Assembly (NCBI GenBank): GCA_012729785.1
Contig: JAAYCL010000007.1
Span: 1-15,206 of the forward strand
Reading direction: 5' to 3'
Source: Chlamydiota bacterium
GTDB taxonomy: Bacteria; Auribacterota; Tritonobacteria; UBA1439
DNA length: 15,206 bases
Each line of letters starts with the position of its first letter. Position 1 is the first letter of the stretch. Under the pieces are notes generated by a model that saw only the letters and a list, made by a program, of their open reading frames with translations, searched no databases and was not told the origin of the DNA. This document shows, piece after piece, positions 1-15,206 of the stretch. A program made the position numbers and the translations under genes.

Positions 1-145
<145 letters not shown>

Positions 146-148
146 CCT

Positions 149-2227
<2,079 letters not shown>

Positions 2228-2305
2228 ACAGTTCCGATCCCCCGCGGCTGCCGCGCCGCCGAAAACGTGCACCACGGCACACGGGGGCATATGTGTCCCT
2301 TCCCG

Positions 2306-2779
2306 CTACCAGCGGTAGTGCGCGAACGCCTTGTTCGCCTCCGCCATCTTGTGCGTGTCCTCGCGCTTCTTGACCGCGGCCCCTTCGCCCTTGTAGGCGT
2401 CGAGGATCTCCGCGGCGAGCCGTTCCTGCATCGGCTTCCCCTTGCGGGCCCGGGAAAAACCGATGATCCAGCGGAGCGCCAGGGCGAGCTGGCGGTCCGA
2501 GCGCACCTCCACCGGGACCTGGTACGTCGCGCCGCCGACCCTCCTGGACTTCACCTCGAGAAACGGCTTCACCCGGTCGACCGCCTTCTCCACGACCTTG
2601 AGCGGCGGGAGCTCCTGCACGCGCTGGCCGATCAGGTCGAGGGTCGAGTAGAAGATCCCCTCCGCGATGCTCTTCTTCCCGTCCCGCATCAGGCTGGTGA
2701 TGAACCTGGCGACCAGCGGGCTCCCGAACTTCACATCCGTCAGCATCCTCTTCTTGATGACCCTGCGCCGTCTCGACAT
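2306..2779 (-). CDS. rpsG: 30S ribosomal protein S7
   Basis: S7 nucleates folding of the 16S rRNA 3' major domain (30S head) and lies beside the E-site tRNA and the mRNA exit path. The protein has 157 residues, a typical length (about 156). It begins [13 protein letters not shown] and contains the family signature [20 protein letters not shown], followed by the β-hairpin segment [20 protein letters not shown]. It ends in [16 protein letters not shown]. The ATG at 2779 is preceded by AGAGGG at about 5 nt. It sits 52 nt after rpsL and before fusA, the conserved str order. In E. coli S7 represses its own operon by binding the rpsL-rpsG spacer; the short spacer here has a small GC hairpin but no recognisable copy of that site. 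Confidence 0.98.
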
Positions 2780-2831
2780 TGTTCCCTCTGTTCTTCCGTG
2801 TCCCTTCTTCTTATGGCGTGCCGCGTGCGGC

Positions 2832-3203
2832 TTACTTGGGCGTCTTCGCCCCGTACTTGGATCGGCTGCGCTTGCGCCCCTCGACGCCGCTCGTGTCCAG
2901 GGTGCCGCGGATGATATGGTAGCGCACCCCGGGCAGATCCTTGACCCGTCCGCCGCGCAGCATCACGATCGAGTGCTCCTGGAGGTTGTGCCCCTCGCCT
3001 GGGATGTAGGCGGTTACCTCGATCCCGTTCGTGAGGCGCACCCGGGCGACCTTCCGCAGCGCCGAGTTCGGCTTCTTCGGCGTCATCGTCTTCACCAGGA
3101 GGCAGACCCCCCTGCGCTGGGGGCAGCGCATCAAGGCGGGCGACTTCGTCCGGTTTCTCGGTTTCCGTCTCCCCTTCCTCACCAGCTGGTTGATCGTCGG
3201 CAT
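2832..3203 (-). CDS. rpsL: 30S ribosomal protein S12
   Basis: S12 lies at the decoding centre and controls accuracy of codon-anticodon reading. The protein has 123 residues, the usual length, starting [20 protein letters not shown]. The core loop [12 protein letters not shown] has Lys43 and Lys44. The second loop [13 protein letters not shown] has Lys88 and Asp89, where Asp89 is the residue methylthiolated by RimO in many bacteria. Lys43 and Lys88 are the positions where streptomycin-resistance changes usually occur, and both are wild type here. Residue 40 is Met where E. coli has Thr. GCGAGGAG lies about 8 nt before the ATG. The gene starts 36 nt after rpoC with no visible promoter or terminator, so the rpoBC and str genes are probably cotranscribed. 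Confidence 0.98.
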
Positions 3204-3239
3204 ATTCGATGCTCCTCGCGTTGTGGTCCGTTCGTGCGC

Positions 3240-7507
<4,268 letters not shown>

Positions 7508-7511
<4 letters not shown>

Positions 7512-7519
7512 ATTGGCAT
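7508..7519 (-). other. Three-codon mini-ORF overlapping the rpoC start
   Basis: ATG CCA ATT TGA begins 8 nt upstream of the rpoC TTG, directly after a GGTGGGGGG stretch that could act as a ribosome-binding site. Its TGA stop shares bases with the TTG start (the TTGA overlap), a layout compatible with termination-reinitiation. The sequence is certain; translation of this element is conjecture. Confidence 0.3.
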
Positions 7520-7620
7520 CCCCCCACCTTAGAATCCCAAATCCAATCCCGGCGCCGCAATCCCAGGCCCGAACCCAGATCCCCGGATCCCGGATCTGGA
7601 GTCCCGGTTTTCAGCCCCCC
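7520..7620 (-). repeat. G-tract repeat array with quadruplex motif in the rpoB-rpoC spacer
   Basis: Most of the 124-nt spacer is a degenerate 6-8 nt repeat of the form GGGATYN on the mRNA-like strand. Ten runs of three or more G occur, as plus-strand C runs at 7520-7525, 7536-7538, 7548-7550, 7562-7564, 7568-7570, 7574-7576, 7581-7584, 7589-7591, 7603-7605 and 7615-7620. The five runs from 7562 to 7591 have loops of 3, 3, 4 and 4 nt, which meets the canonical G3+N1-7 quadruplex pattern. No open reading frame or promoter is apparent in it. The array is seen directly; folding into a quadruplex is inference. Confidence 0.75.
7575..7599 (-). other. 8-bp stem-loop inside the rpoB-rpoC spacer
   Basis: On the mRNA-like strand CCAGATCC and GGATCTGG are perfect inverse complements around a 9-nt loop, placing a stem-loop between rpoB and rpoC. 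It uses G runs that also belong to the quadruplex motif, so the two folds would exclude each other. No U tract follows, so it is not a standard intrinsic terminator. Confidence 0.6.
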
Positions 7621-7635
7621 GCTCCACGGCTTCCG

Positions 7636-11433
<3,798 letters not shown>

Positions 11434-11463
11434 GGAACCCCTCTTCTACGCGCTGAACATCCC

Positions 11464-11503
11464 GCGCCGCGGCGCCTGCCGTGCCCGGCGCGCCGCCCCC
11501 CCC
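11464..11503 (-). promoter_or_regulatory. Strong GC hairpin in the rplL-rpoB spacer
   Basis: Within the 86-nt spacer, 11469-11496 folds (mRNA sense) as a 7-bp stem GCGGCGC/GCGCCGC continuing through a 2-nt bulge into GCCG/CGGC with a GGCA tetraloop: 11 GC pairs. The downstream arm overlaps a 12-nt perfect palindrome at 11464-11475. A run of eight G lies just 5' of it (11496-11503). No U tract follows, so it is not a classic terminator. E. coli has a partial attenuator and an RNase III site in the same spacer; a similar role here is inference from position. Confidence 0.55.
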
Positions 11504-11519
11504 GCGTTCGACACAGGCG

Positions 11520-12002
11520 CTACTTGATCTCCACCGTGCCGCCGGCCGCGACGATCTTCTTCTTGATCTCCTCGGCCTCTTCCTTGGTGACGTTCTCCTT
11601 CACCGGTTTCGGGGCGCCCTCGACGAGGTCCTTGGCCTCCTTCAGGCCCAGGCTCGTGATCGCGCGCACCTCCTTGATCACCTGGATCTTCTTGTCTCCG
11701 GCGCCGGTCAGCACCACGGTGAAGGCGGTCTTCTCCTCCTTGGCCTCCGCGGGGGCCGCGGCGGCCGCGGCGACCGCGACGGGCGCGGCGGCGCTGACCC
11801 CGAACTCCGCCTCCATCGACTTCACCCACTCGGAGAGCTCGAGAACGGTGAGCCCCTTCACCATCTCCAAACCGAGCGCCTTGCGCTCCTCGGGCTTCAG
11901 CCCGTTGATCTGTTTGAGGATGGCCGCGAGTTCCCCCGACATCGCGGGGGCCGCCTCCGCCTTCGCCTCGTTCTTTTCCGCCTTGATTGTCTGCTCGGTC
12001 AT
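11520..12002 (-). CDS. rplL: 50S ribosomal protein L7/L12, N-terminally extended
   Basis: L12 forms the mobile stalk that recruits and activates GTPase factors such as EF-G and EF-Tu. Order in the protein: an extension at 1-45 rich in Ala, Glu and Lys; the L10-binding N-terminal helices at about 46-68 ([20 protein letters not shown]); an Ala/Pro hinge at 69-90; and the globular C-terminal domain at 91-160 with [20 protein letters not shown]. The total is 160 residues where 120-130 is usual. The ATG at 12002 is chosen because GGAGGAGGAGGAA lies 3 nt upstream. A TTG further upstream (12023) would read through this purine run and is rejected. An internal ATG at codon 21 would give 140 residues, still long. 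It follows rplJ by 54 nt. Confidence 0.95.
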
Positions 12003-12005
12003 CGC

Positions 12006-12018
12006 TTCCTCCTCCTCC
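12006..12018 (-). promoter_or_regulatory. Extended Shine-Dalgarno of rplL
   Basis: The purine run GGAGGAGGAGGAA holds three overlapping GGAGG-like anti-16S matches directly before the rplL ATG. It is the strongest ribosome-binding site in the window, which suits a protein made in several copies per ribosome, and it fixes the start at 12002. Confidence 0.75.
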
Positions 12019-12056
12019 GCCAACGGCCGCTTCTCACGCCGCCTGCTGTGGGTTGA

Positions 12057-12575
12057 TTAGTGTGCCGCCCGTTTCCGGGCGACCTGGTCCAGTACGGACA
12101 CGAACTGCCTGAGGATCCCCGAGAGCCCGCACACGAAGCCGGTGATCGGGGCCCGGACGCTCCCCAAGAACATCGCCATGAGCACCGGGCGCGCGGGCAG
12201 CGAGGCGAGCGCGCCCACCTCCGCCTCGGTGAGCAGCGCCCCGTCGAGGAACCCCGCCTTGACCCTCGGGCCCTGGTTCTTCTTCGCGAACTCGACGATG
12301 ATCTTCGAGAAGGCGGCGCTGTTGCCGGCGGTGACCGCGAGGGCGGTCGGCCCCTCAAGCGCCCCCGCGAGCGGCGCCGCCCGCTCCTCGCCGAGGGCCC
12401 GCTTCAGGAGCCGGTTCTTGACCACCATGTACCGCGCGCCCCCCCGCTGCAGGAGGCCGCGCAGCTCGGTCATCGAGCTCGAAGAGAGGCCGGTGTGGTC
12501 CGTGACGATGAGCATCGCCCCTCCCTCGAGGAGCGCCTGCACAGATGCGACGATGCTTTTCTTCTCCGCGCGCAT
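12057..12575 (-). CDS. rplJ: 50S ribosomal protein L10
   Basis: L10 anchors L12 dimers to the 23S rRNA at the stalk base next to L11, and in E. coli represses rplJL translation. The protein has 172 residues, typical for the family. It starts MRAEKKSIVASVQALLEGGA and contains MLIVTDHTGLSSSSMTELRG, YMVVKNRLLKRAL and GPTALAVT. A long C-terminal helix region (VSVLDQVARKRAAH) provides the L12-binding surface. The reading frame stays open far upstream, but the family N-terminus fixes the ATG at 12575. No good Shine-Dalgarno precedes it; instead a heptad repeat ends 10 nt before the start. Initiation may depend on coupling, on the GAG of the repeat, or on an unrecognised signal. Confidence 0.96.
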   Translation of the reverse strand: MRAEKKSIVASVQALLEGGAMLIVTDHTGLSSSSMTELRGLLQRGGARYMVVKNRLLKRALGEERAAPLAGALEGPTALAVTAGNSAAFSKIIVEFAKKNQGPRVKAGFLDGALLTEAEVGALASLPARPVLMAMFLGSVRAPITGFVCGLSGILRQFVSVLDQVARKRAAH

Positions 12576-12585
12576 GGATAAAACC

Positions 12586-12620
12586 GTTTCTCGTTTCTCG
12601 TTTCCCGTTTCCCGTTTCCC
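12586..12620 (-). repeat. Perfect 7-nt tandem repeat before rplJ
   Basis: Five contiguous heptamers occupy 35 nt of the 74-nt rplA-rplJ spacer. In mRNA sense these are three copies of GGGAAAC followed by two of GAGAAAC. The last unit ends 10 nt before the rplJ ATG, where a Shine-Dalgarno would be expected. The array is exact apart from the one-base variant and is plainly not coding. Its origin (replication slippage or a genome-wide repeat family) and role are unknown. Confidence 0.9.
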
Positions 12621-12633
12621 GGGCCTTTTCGCG

Positions 12634-12650
12634 GCGCCGCACGCCGGCGC
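12634..12650 (-). other. GC hairpin at the rplA stop codon
   Basis: In mRNA sense GCGCCG and CGGCGC form a perfect 6-bp stem around a 5-nt loop, and the first G belongs to the rplA TAG stop. CGCGAAAAGG follows rather than a U tract. It lies immediately before the heptad repeat. It could protect or pause the transcript; that is inference. Confidence 0.5.
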
Positions 12651-13348
12651 TACACGGTCGCGAACTCCTTCATCTCCACGGGGATCCCCGGCCCCATCGT
12701 GCTGGAGAGCACGCACCGTTTCAGGAAGACCCCCTTCACCGACGCGGGTTTGGCCTTGAGGAGCCCCTCGATGACGGTCCGGGCATTCTCCTCCAGGGCG
12801 CGAACGGCGAACGACCGCTTCCCGATCGGCACCTGCACGTTTCCGCCCTTGTCGGTCCTGAACTCTATCCTTCCGGCCTTCAGCTCCCTGACCGCCTTGC
12901 CGATCTCCCGGGTGACCGTGCCGGTCTTGGGGCTGGGCATCAGGCCTCGCGGGCCGAGGACCTTGCCGAGACGCCCGACCTCCTTCATCAGATCGGGGCT
13001 CGTCACGGCCATGTCGAACTCCGCCCACCCCCCGCTCACCTTCTTGATCAGCTCCTCGAAGCCGACGACATCGGCGCCGGCCTCCTTCGCCTCGTCGGCC
13101 TGCGCCCCCTTGGCGAAGACGACGATGCGCACCTTCTTGCCGGTCCCGTGCGGGAGCGCGACCGTCCCGCGGACGAGCTGGTCTGTCTGCTTCGGGTCGA
13201 TCCCGAGGCAGAGGGCCATCTCGACCGTCTCGTCGAACTTCGCCGCGGGCAGCTCCCCGAGCAGTTTCACCGCGTCGGCGAGCGGATACCGTGTGCCCGC
13301 CGCGATCTTCTCCGCTCCCTGCCTGTAGCGCTTGCTCTTCTTCTTCAC
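12650..13348 (-). CDS. rplA: 50S ribosomal protein L1
   Basis: L1 forms the mobile stalk at the ribosomal E site and helps eject deacylated tRNA. In many bacteria it also represses its own rplK-rplA operon. The protein has 232 residues, the normal length. It starts MKKKSKRYRQGAEKI, then YPLADAVKLLGELPAAKFDE, the TVALPHGTGKKVRIVVFA core, the signature LGPRGLMPSPKTGTV, and ends in PVEMKEFATV. The start is GTG at 13348 with GAGGAG about 5-6 nt upstream; no alternative fits the family N-terminus better. It lies 22 nt after rplK, consistent with translational coupling of the L11-L1 pair. I could not identify an L1-binding mRNA site with confidence. Confidence 0.98.
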   Translation of the reverse strand: MKKKSKRYRQGAEKIAAGTRYPLADAVKLLGELPAAKFDETVEMALCLGIDPKQTDQLVRGTVALPHGTGKKVRIVVFAKGAQADEAKEAGADVVGFEELIKKVSGGWAEFDMAVTSPDLMKEVGRLGKVLGPRGLMPSPKTGTVTREIGKAVRELKAGRIEFRTDKGGNVQVPIGKRSFAVRALEENARTVIEGLLKAKPASVKGVFLKRCVLSSTMGPGIPVEMKEFATV

Positions 13349-13370
13349 CGTGGCTCCTCGCGTCAGGGGA

Positions 13371-13799
13371 TCAGCCCTCGACGACCTCCAAACCCATGCT
13401 GCGCGCGGTCCCCTCGATGATCCTCGCCGCCGCCTCCTCGCTCGCCGAGGTGAGATCCGCCGCCTTCTGTCGGGCGATCTCCCGCACCTGGCTCTTCGTC
13501 ACCGTGCCGACCTTGTCCTTGCCCGCCGTCCCCGAGCCCACCGCGATATTGGCGGCCTTCTTCAAGAGCACCGCCGCGGGAGGCGACTTCAAGACGAAGG
13601 TGAACGAGCGGTCCTTGTAAACCGTGATGAGCACCGGGATCACCAGGCCGCCCTTGTCCTTGGTGGCGGCGTTGAACTGCTTGCAGAACTCCATGATGTT
13701 CACGCCGTGCTGCCCGAGGGCGGGCCCCACCGGCGGCGCGGGGTTCGCCTGTCCGGCCGGAATCTGCAGCTTGATGAGCGCTCCCACTTCCTTGGCCAT
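13371..13799 (-). CDS. rplK: 50S ribosomal protein L11
   Basis: L11 binds the GTPase-associated region of 23S rRNA at the stalk base, and is needed for stringent-factor activation and factor-dependent GTP hydrolysis. The protein has 142 residues, a standard length. The N-terminal domain begins [20 protein letters not shown] with the Pro-rich thiostrepton-contact segment [20 protein letters not shown]. The rRNA-binding C-terminal domain includes [20 protein letters not shown] and ends SMGLEVVEG. The ATG at 13799 has AGAGGA 4-5 nt upstream. It lies downstream of nusG, separated by a 59-nt spacer carrying heptad repeats, and directly upstream of rplA. Confidence 0.98.
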
Positions 13800-13815
13800 G
13801 TCTTCCTCTTCTTCA

Positions 13816-13857
13816 GCCGCACGCTCTACGCGTACGGATTAGCGCGTATGGCGTACG
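13816..13857 (-). repeat. Degenerate 7-nt repeats between nusG and rplK
   Basis: Right after the nusG stop the spacer reads in phase as six heptads. In mRNA sense: CGTACGC, CATACGC, GCTAATC, CGTACGC, GTAGAGC, GTGCGGC. Three of the six match within one or two bases and the 7-nt phase holds across 42 nt. The repeat unit differs from the one before rplJ. The pattern is visible but less regular than that array. Confidence 0.55.
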
Positions 13858-13858
13858 G

Positions 13859-14431
13859 CTATTCCTTCTCCACCTGCCAGTACTCCAGCTCCACCGGCGT
13901 GGACCTGCCGAAGATCGTCACGAGCACCTTCAGCTTCCCGCGGTCCGGGTTCACCTCGTCGACGGTGCCGTTGAAGTTGATGAACGGCCCGTCGGTCACC
14001 TTCACCGTCTCCCCGAGCTCGAACAGCGTCTTGGGCTTCACCTTCTCGCGCTTGAGCTCGATCTGCGACAGCACATCCTGCACCTCGTGCTCCTGGAGGG
14101 GGATCGGAGACCCCGAGCCGATGAAGCCGATCACGCCGGGCGTCTGCCGGACGAGGTAGTAGGTCTCGTCGGTCCGCACCATCTCGACCATCAGGTAGCC
14201 GGGGAAGAACTTCCGCGCGCTGATGGTCTTCTTGCCGGCCTTGACCTCGGCGACCTTTTCCGAGGGGATCAGCACCCGGCTGATGAGCCCCTCCATCTCG
14301 TGGCTCTTCACCCGGCTTTCGAGCATCTCCTTGACCTTGTACTCCTGGCCCGCGAGGGTGTGCACGACGTACCACCTCCGGTCCTGCGCGCCCTCGTCTT
14401 TCGGCTCGACACCCTGTCCGTTGTCAGTCAC
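13859..14431 (-). CDS. nusG: Transcription termination/antitermination factor NusG
   Basis: NusG binds the β' clamp and the β gate loop, suppresses pausing, and links polymerase to Rho or to ribosomal S10. The NGN domain begins RRWYVVHTLAGQEYKVKEML and includes KFFPGYLMVEM. The C-terminal KOW domain is LGETVKVTDGPFINFNGTVD to the end (EYWQVEKE). From the chosen start it has 190 residues. Two GTG codons compete: 14440 with a poor upstream match, and 14431 with GGGAG 8 nt upstream. The second is preferred, and the difference is 3 residues. About 20 residues of charged, probably disordered sequence precede the NGN domain. It follows secE by about 40 nt, the widely conserved secE-nusG pair. Confidence 0.96.
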   Translation of the reverse strand: MTDNGQGVEPKDEGAQDRRWYVVHTLAGQEYKVKEMLESRVKSHEMEGLISRVLIPSEKVAEVKAGKKTISARKFFPGYLMVEMVRTDETYYLVRQTPGVIGFIGSGSPIPLQEHEVQDVLSQIELKREKVKPKTLFELGETVKVTDGPFINFNGTVDEVNPDRGKLKVLVTIFGRSTPVELEYWQVEKE

Positions 14432-14470
14432 CTGTCTCACTCCCGCGTCCGCCGGGCGCCCCCGCCGGGG

Positions 14471-14695
14471 TCACCCGATCAGCAGCCCCATCAGACCGGA
14501 AAGGACCGTATCCACGAGGCCGATGTACGCGGCCAGCGCGACCGTGGACACGATCACCATCGTCGTGGAGTCGATCAGCTCCCGATACCGCTCGGCGGGC
14601 TTGAGGTCCTTGCCCCTCTTGATCGGCCACGAGACCTTGCCCATCTCCGCCGCGACCTCGACGAGGAACGCCTTCGCCTTCTGCAGCATGCCCAT
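14471..14695 (-). CDS. secE: Preprotein translocase subunit SecE
   Basis: SecE clamps the two halves of SecY in the SecYEG protein-conducting channel. The protein has 74 residues, the short single-span form common outside Enterobacteria (E. coli SecE has three spans). The amphipathic N-terminal helix carries the conserved KVSWP motif (about 20-24), followed by the ELIDST turn and one hydrophobic membrane helix at about 44-70 (TMVIVSTVALAAYIGLVDTV). The ATG at 14695 has AAAGG about 9 nt upstream; a second ATG two codons later is equally possible. It sits between tRNA-Trp and nusG, a context shared by many bacteria. Confidence 0.95.
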   Translation of the reverse strand: MGMLQKAKAFLVEVAAEMGKVSWPIKRGKDLKPAERYRELIDSTTMVIVSTVALAAYIGLVDTVLSGLMGLLIG

Positions 14696-14747
14696 CCCCC
14701 CGCGCCTTTCGGCAAGGAATGCGATCGATGAACCCCGAGCAGCCGCG

Positions 14748-14763
14748 CGCGGAACGCTCCGCG
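14748..14763 (-). other. 6-bp hairpin between tRNA-Trp and secE
   Basis: In mRNA sense CGCGGA-GCGT-TCCGCG is a perfect 6-bp stem with a 4-nt loop, starting 12 nt after the tRNA CCA end. No U tract follows, so termination is unlikely. It could mark the boundary where the tRNA is cut from the polycistronic transcript. The 79-nt spacer holds nothing else recognisable. Confidence 0.45.
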
Positions 14764-14774
14764 GGGCCGTGCAA

Positions 14775-14851
14775 TGGCAGGCGGGACAGGAATCGAACCT
14801 GCAGCCGCCGGTTTTGGAGACCGGTGCTCTACCTAGTTGAGCTACCCGCCT
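14775..14851 (-). tRNA. trnW: tRNA-Trp (anticodon CCA)
   Basis: A full cloverleaf folds by eye: acceptor AGGCGGG/CCCGCCT (7 perfect pairs), D stem GCTC/GAGC, anticodon stem CCGGT/ACCGG with loop CTCCAAA (anticodon CCA), T stem GCAGG/CCTGT with loop TTCGATT, discriminator G, and an encoded 3' CCA. The total is 77 nt. The anticodon arm is identical to that of E. coli tRNA-Trp. It lies 56 nt after rpmG and 79 nt before secE on the same strand, so it is probably cut from the shared transcript. Confidence 0.98.
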
Positions 14852-14907
14852 TCACGATGTGCCGGGCGCACGGGTGTCGCCTTGTCCGTCCGCCCGCGAA
14901 AGGGGCG

Positions 14908-15057
14908 TTACTTCGTCTCCTTGTGCAGCGTATGCTTCCGGTCGAACCTGCAATATTTCTTCAGCTCGATGCGCGCAGGGTGCTTCTTCTTGTCCTTCGT
15001 GGAGGTGTAGTTCCTCTGTTTGCACTCCTGACAGGCGAGCGTGATGATCTCTCTCAT
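14908..15057 (-). CDS. rpmG: 50S ribosomal protein L33
   Basis: L33 is a small zinc-ribbon type protein near the ribosomal E site. It has 49 residues: [20 protein letters not shown], then [15 protein letters not shown], ending [14 protein letters not shown]. The usual zinc set is two CxxC pairs. Here the first pair is complete (Cys9, Cys12), but the second is Cys36-Arg-Phe-Asp39, leaving three Cys plus Asp. The ATG at 15057 has AGGA 6 nt upstream. It lies 36 nt after tuf and before tRNA-Trp, the common tuf-rpmG-trnW-secE-nusG order. It is short, and its true frame differs from a longer overlapping open frame. Confidence 0.96.
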
Positions 15058-15068
15058 GGTGTGTCCTA

Positions 15069-15085
15069 TCGGGCCTATCGCCCGA
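15069..15085 (-). other. 6-bp stem-loop between tuf and rpmG
   Basis: In mRNA sense TCGGGC-GATAG-GCCCGA is a perfect 6-bp stem with a 5-nt loop in the 36-nt spacer. The same stretch holds two copies of CGATAGG offset by 9 nt. The rpmG AGGA Shine-Dalgarno begins just after the stem, so the fold could influence L33 initiation. No U tract follows. Confidence 0.45.
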
Positions 15086-15093
15086 GATCCGCC

Positions 15094-15206
15094 TTATTTG
15101 ATGATCTCGCTGACCCTTCCCGCGCCCACCGTCCGGCCGCCCTCGCGCACCGCGAACCGCAGCCCCTTCTCCATCGCGATCGGCGTGATCAGCTCGCACT
15201 CCACCG
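15094..15206 (-). CDS. tuf: Elongation factor Tu, 3' end only (first tuf copy)
   Basis: Only the last 37 codons and the TAA stop are inside the window. The peptide includes [20 protein letters not shown] and [16 protein letters not shown], the canonical EF-Tu domain III C-terminus that contacts aminoacyl-tRNA. The gene enters from the right edge and precedes rpmG, the position of tufB in the E. coli tuf-tRNA-secE-nusG region. No conclusion about its promoter is possible from this window. Confidence 0.96.

Follow-up and report, generated by a model that had tools for sequence, protein, structure and literature searches.

A degenerate heptad repeat array in the rpoB-rpoC spacer of a Chlamydiota bacterium

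We analyzed a 15,206-nt stretch of DNA from a Chlamydiota bacterium (contig JAAYCL010000007.1, positions 1 to 15,206; hereafter the window), in which the genes rpoB and rpoC are separated by exactly the interval 7512-7635 (124 nt). The mRNA strand of this spacer is the minus strand, and it contains ten runs of at least three guanosines. Gene borders, run count, pattern matching and folding bear out the features that the original prediction had listed for the spacer, namely its length and G-runs, a canonical quadruplex motif with five runs, and an 8-bp inverted repeat. The features are as follows.

3240..7511, minus strand: rpoC, starting with TTG (open reading frame and homology)
7520..7530, minus strand: AAGGTGGGGGG, likely Shine-Dalgarno region of rpoC, 8 nt before the TTG (G-rich box in relatives)
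7528..7614, minus strand: degenerate G-rich heptad array of 87 nt, unit approximately GGGATYY, with 6- and 8-base slips (cyclic profile)
7562..7591, minus strand: canonical quadruplex motif GGGATCCGGGGATCTGGGTTCGGGCCTGGG with five G-runs, part of the heptad array (pattern match)
7575..7599, no strand assigned: 8-bp inverted repeat CCAGATCC/GGATCTGG with a 9-nt loop, inside the heptad array (fold)
7636..11433, minus strand: rpoB, 1265 amino acids (open reading frame and homology)
12585..12621, no strand assigned: second heptad array of the window, unit CGTTTCY, filling the rplJ-rplA spacer (Tandem Repeats Finder and lag-7 scan)

The last G-run of the spacer (7520-7525) is likely the ribosome-binding site of rpoC, because a G-rich box is found at the matching place upstream of rpoC in a relative of the same genus (G001) and in two family members (G003 and G004), and the 3' end of the 16S rRNA of the window's genome carries CCTCC. 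G001 and G004 likewise have a TTG start of rpoC at this position. Between the putative ribosome-binding site and the TTG lies a mini-ORF (ATG-CCA-ATT-TGA, 7509-7519) whose stop overlaps the rpoC start codon; its ATG is absent at the counterpart in G001. The 25-nt hairpin at 7575-7599 has a predicted folding energy of -12.7 kcal/mol and no T-run after it, and neither an intrinsic terminator nor a promoter was found in the rpoB-rpoC spacer. An Rfam search of the window returned no match except a tRNA elsewhere in the window.

The spacer is ordered in heptads. We built a cyclic seven-column profile (GGGATYY), using as training set the arrays at five loci elsewhere in this genome. On the minus strand of 7528-7614 this profile scores 56.1 bits, compared with 13.7 +/- 3.6 for dinucleotide shuffles of the spacer (maximum 39.3), and none of 2000 shuffles reaches the observed score. 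Among 782 spacer strands the rpoB-rpoC spacer ranks fourth, behind three of the training loci; the window was not part of the training set. Plain self-matching at a lag of seven gives a score of 10 (p ~0.016, one of nine lags tested). The heptad order of the spacer is beyond chance. In contrast, the G-runs are close to what composition gives (10 observed vs 8.0 +/- 1.3 in dinucleotide shuffles, 12.5% of which reach 10). A canonical quadruplex motif turns up in 52% of the dinucleotide shuffles, and it is the period of seven, not the G-runs, that organizes the spacer.

Arrays of this kind are dispersed through the genome, which comprises 2.59 Mb in 45 contigs, of which about 0.77 Mb (68% GC) was sampled, partly at places chosen for GGGATYY matches. 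In this sample the intergenic DNA holds 14 lag-7 arrays at the stricter threshold compared with 3.0 expected, and smaller excesses occur at lags 6, 9 and 12. A lag-7 scan made without gene calls yielded few arrays in this GC-rich genome, whereas restriction to intergenic DNA and use of the profile were effective. Siblings of the rpoB-rpoC array lie on contigs C8, C21, C32, C44 and C45, and arrays occur in the spacers of many unrelated genes. Their units differ by locus and include GAGATTT/GAGATCT (C21, C44 and C32), GGGATTC (C45), the CGTTTCY of window positions 12585-12621, GGTGCAA and others. Sibling arrays often lack GGG and are built of GAGATYT units; about half of the units in the training arrays have A at the second position, so GGG is not kept among the siblings. 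On C45 an inverted GGGATTY pair flanks a gene-less stretch of 130 nt. A genome-wide family of the exact sequence GGGATTNGGGATTNGGG was ruled out, as it is limited to the C45 pair, and degenerate profiles were therefore needed.

Heptameric repeats with the units GGGNATC and GGGGA(T/C)T have been described in Xanthomonas and Nostoc (Rehm et al. 2015, PMC4692102). These are intergenic, lie between co-directional genes, are dispersed and sometimes occur as inverted pairs, and they are compatible with quadruplex formation, which was K+-dependent in vitro; the authors found no role in gene regulation (PMC4692102). The spacer array resembles them in being a tandem of sevens with a G-rich core that is intergenic, lies between two co-directional genes, is compatible with a quadruplex and has siblings dispersed over the genome, some as inverted pairs. 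However, the unit here is GGGATYY and degenerate, siblings often lack GGG, and the copies in the genome are few. The search rule applied to Xanthomonas was at least one exact GGGAATC unit (PMC4692102). No such unit was found on the mRNA strand of 7512-7635, where the units are GGGATYY. Membership of this intergenic heptad class, as a degenerate representative, is the best explanation of the array, which is of the same kind although of a different exact family. A further class of intergenic heptamer direct repeats, TAACTGA, is known from the Beggiatoaceae, where some copies lie upstream of ribosomal protein genes and other essential genes (MacGregor 2015, PMC4679880). The Beggiatoaceae repeats have one fixed unit, whereas the unit here changes by locus. 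MITE-like elements are recognized by shared terminal inverted repeats together with a target-site duplication or a partner transposase. The arrays described here are likewise short repeat DNA in spacers, variably present among relatives and in some cases arranged as inverted pairs, but the copy in the window is mostly one-sided.

We compared 105 rpoB-rpoC spacers, 28 from the same phylum and 77 from other phyla. The original prediction had proposed that a switchable structure, quadruplex or hairpin, tunes the synthesis of β', and comparison with relatives had been named beforehand as a check that could refute it. The sole same-genus genome compared (G001) has a spacer of 66 nt that lacks both an array and a quadruplex motif; the G-runs are not kept in this close relative, and the check thus goes against the switch. 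A clean empty site was sought in G001 and not found, as its spacer differs throughout, beyond the loss of the array. In the three family members that were read, the heptad array is A-rich and palindromic (G004), short with the unit GTTTAAG (G002), or lacking (G003). A lag-7 score of at least 11 is reached by 4 of the 28 spacers of the phylum (0.1 expected) and by 5 of the 77 from other phyla (0.3 expected). In the phylum set seven is the sole period at which this score is reached, and over both sets other periods contribute hardly anything; most of the 105 spacers are without heptad arrays. As judged from these spacers, the recurrent feature at this position is the heptad, not guanine. Palindromic arrays of short repeats, mostly heptads, also fill the rpoB-rpoC spacer of unrelated bacteria (L067, L070, L072, L076 and L099).

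We consider it likely, with a probability of roughly 80%, that the spacer array derives from a dispersed intergenic heptad repeat, of which it is a degenerate copy, and that it is tolerated and near-neutral, with structural effects on β' that would be incidental and lineage-specific. One common unit in this genome is G-rich (G[G/A]GATYY), so that the copy in the spacer automatically brings many G-runs and one quadruplex-compatible stretch. The array lies between the rpoB stop and the likely ribosome-binding site of rpoC and is thus probably co-transcribed and read through; transcription through it would touch neither reading frame nor the ribosome-binding site. Repeat DNA at this position is most likely tolerated, and its near-neutrality is suggested by its non-conservation in relatives. 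A neutral repeat insertion had also been considered in the original prediction, and this alternative comes close: the spacer does hold a repeat, a degenerate heptad array with dispersed siblings, and its neutrality is suggested by the same lack of conservation.

We consider it improbable that the spacer forms, as RNA or DNA, a quadruplex in competition with the hairpin, and that this quadruplex either tunes rpoC translation or pauses RNA polymerase in its own operon. The canonical five-run motif does lie on the mRNA strand, an isolated 71-nt core is predicted to be more stable with a quadruplex than without (-34.3 vs -29.2 kcal/mol), and K+-dependent quadruplex formation in vitro is documented for related heptads (PMC4692102). 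However, the predicted minimum for the whole spacer in a quadruplex-aware fold consists of ordinary helices and no quadruplex, the motif is expected from composition alone in about half of shuffles, and it is absent from the same-genus relative. The window's spacer is the only one of the 105 with a sense-strand motif; the other 104 have none. There is also no bias toward the mRNA strand in this genome: of the 329 co-directional spacers sampled, 12 have a quadruplex motif on the mRNA strand and 18 have one on the opposite strand. These comparisons give no support to a conserved quadruplex switch, and the array is probably passive rather than a tuned switch.

It is similarly doubtful that the array is a selected spacer, or a hairpin for mRNA stability or processing, in which structure matters while sequence is free and the different heptads of relatives serve the same purpose. 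Such a role would be consistent with the recurrence of palindromic heptad arrays between rpoB and rpoC in several phyla (L007, L072, L076 and L099 among them). However, most rpoB-rpoC spacers do without them, arrays also occupy the spacers of many unrelated genes, and the array in the window is mostly one-sided, with predicted folding of the spacer no stronger than that of shuffles (z = -1.0, and z = +0.7 when quadruplexes are allowed). That the spacer is plain G-rich intergenic sequence of high GC content without repeat ancestry is very unlikely: the number of G-runs, the quadruplex motif and the GC content of the sampled genome agree with it, but the heptad-profile score lies far outside the 2000 shuffles.

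Returning to the array as a copy of a dispersed heptad repeat, we found that small genes of the PF05635 family (23S rRNA-intervening sequence protein family), which encode Avd-like four-helix bundles, are frequently framed by arrays of the same kind. PF05635 genes are present in 32 of 59 relatives. At 20 of the 26 loci with enough flanking sequence a lag-7 array lies beside the gene, compared with 0.2 expected, and other periods show little. At 18 of the 26 loci one arm matches the other in inverted orientation, vs 1 of 104 mismatched pairs and none of 48 control windows. The heptad unit differs between loci, whereas the arms of one locus agree (L185-L213 and L255-L274; in the window's own genome L212, L117:10252-10789 and L176:8509-8943). 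PF05635 loci of other phyla often, though not always, have inverted heptad arms. In the window's own genome all three PF05635 matches lie between inverted heptad arrays, two of them with G-rich arms.

C37:59944: PF05635 match with CGTTTCT arms, between tRNA genes
C3:10459: PF05635 match with GGGGAGCC arms, G-rich inverted repeats
C38:88710: weak PF05635 remnant, below the family cut-off, with CGGGAGTCGGGATCCGGA / CGGGAGCCGGAATCCGGA arms, G-rich inverted repeats

The arms on C3 and C38 show that one PF05635 gene and one PF05635 remnant of this genome are likewise flanked by G-rich repeats resembling the rpoB-rpoC array. The CGTTTCY unit of the second array in the window (12585-12621) is the arm unit of the element on C37. 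In one Bacteroidetes genome (L106) the rpoB-rpoC spacer itself contains a PF05635 gene between two heptad arms. In two families of the phylum heptad-armed PF05635 genes are found in the ilvN-ilvC spacer (L185, L191 and L204), with different heptads. The PF05635 proteins at this shared site are only 39% identical between the two families, which suggests that the spacer has been occupied repeatedly by PF05635 elements.

PF05635 has been reported to be homologous to Avd of diversity-generating retroelements (PMC10053308). The elements described here resemble Avd/PF05635 systems, which include diversity-generating retroelements and 23S rRNA intervening sequences, in having a PF05635 gene or a remnant of it, flanked here by inverted heptad arrays; the rpoB-rpoC spacer differs in showing neither a PF05635 gene nor a reverse transcriptase. 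The solved PF05635 member PDB 2gsc is listed as XCC0516, by its name a Xanthomonas campestris protein and probably one from the strain with the described GGGAATC heptads. A literature search whose coverage left out bioRxiv and most subscription journals found no description of a link between PF05635 and heptads, and the framing of PF05635 genes by heptad arrays looks unreported.

Whether PF05635 is necessary for the heptads was considered. Five genomes free of PF05635 have no arrays in about 270 kb. The densities of PF05635-rich genomes are inflated, as some stretches were picked for containing PF05635 genes; their unchosen stretches hold 15 arrays in 94 kb, 3 in 42 kb, 2 in 49 kb and 0 in 28 kb. 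One genome, G016 (L291-L293), has 16 heptad arrays in 45 kb, many of them inverted pairs, and no PF05635 match. This array-rich genome weakens PF05635 as a necessary cause; the gene may often accompany the heptads as a passenger without producing them.

A broader proposal, which we put forward tentatively and consider possible rather than likely, is that intergenic heptad arrays, including those that form quadruplexes, form the inverted ends, hypervariable and specific to each locus, of a so far undescribed element with an Avd-like PF05635 four-helix bundle as its core gene. Copies with one arm or without the gene would populate spacers throughout the bacteria, and heptads would be made or altered by the PF05635 protein or by a partner acting with it. 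The rpoB-rpoC array would be one such remnant, descended from a gene-less or decayed copy of a PF05635-associated inverted-array element; what the spacer retains is a mostly one-sided array and no gene.

These results remove a tempting but unsupported switch from the RNA polymerase operon and assign the G-tracts of its spacer to a repeat class. They also tie poorly explained intergenic heptads, some of which form quadruplexes, to PF05635, a common family of unknown function. If the link between PF05635 and heptads is causal, the origin of heptad repeats would become testable.
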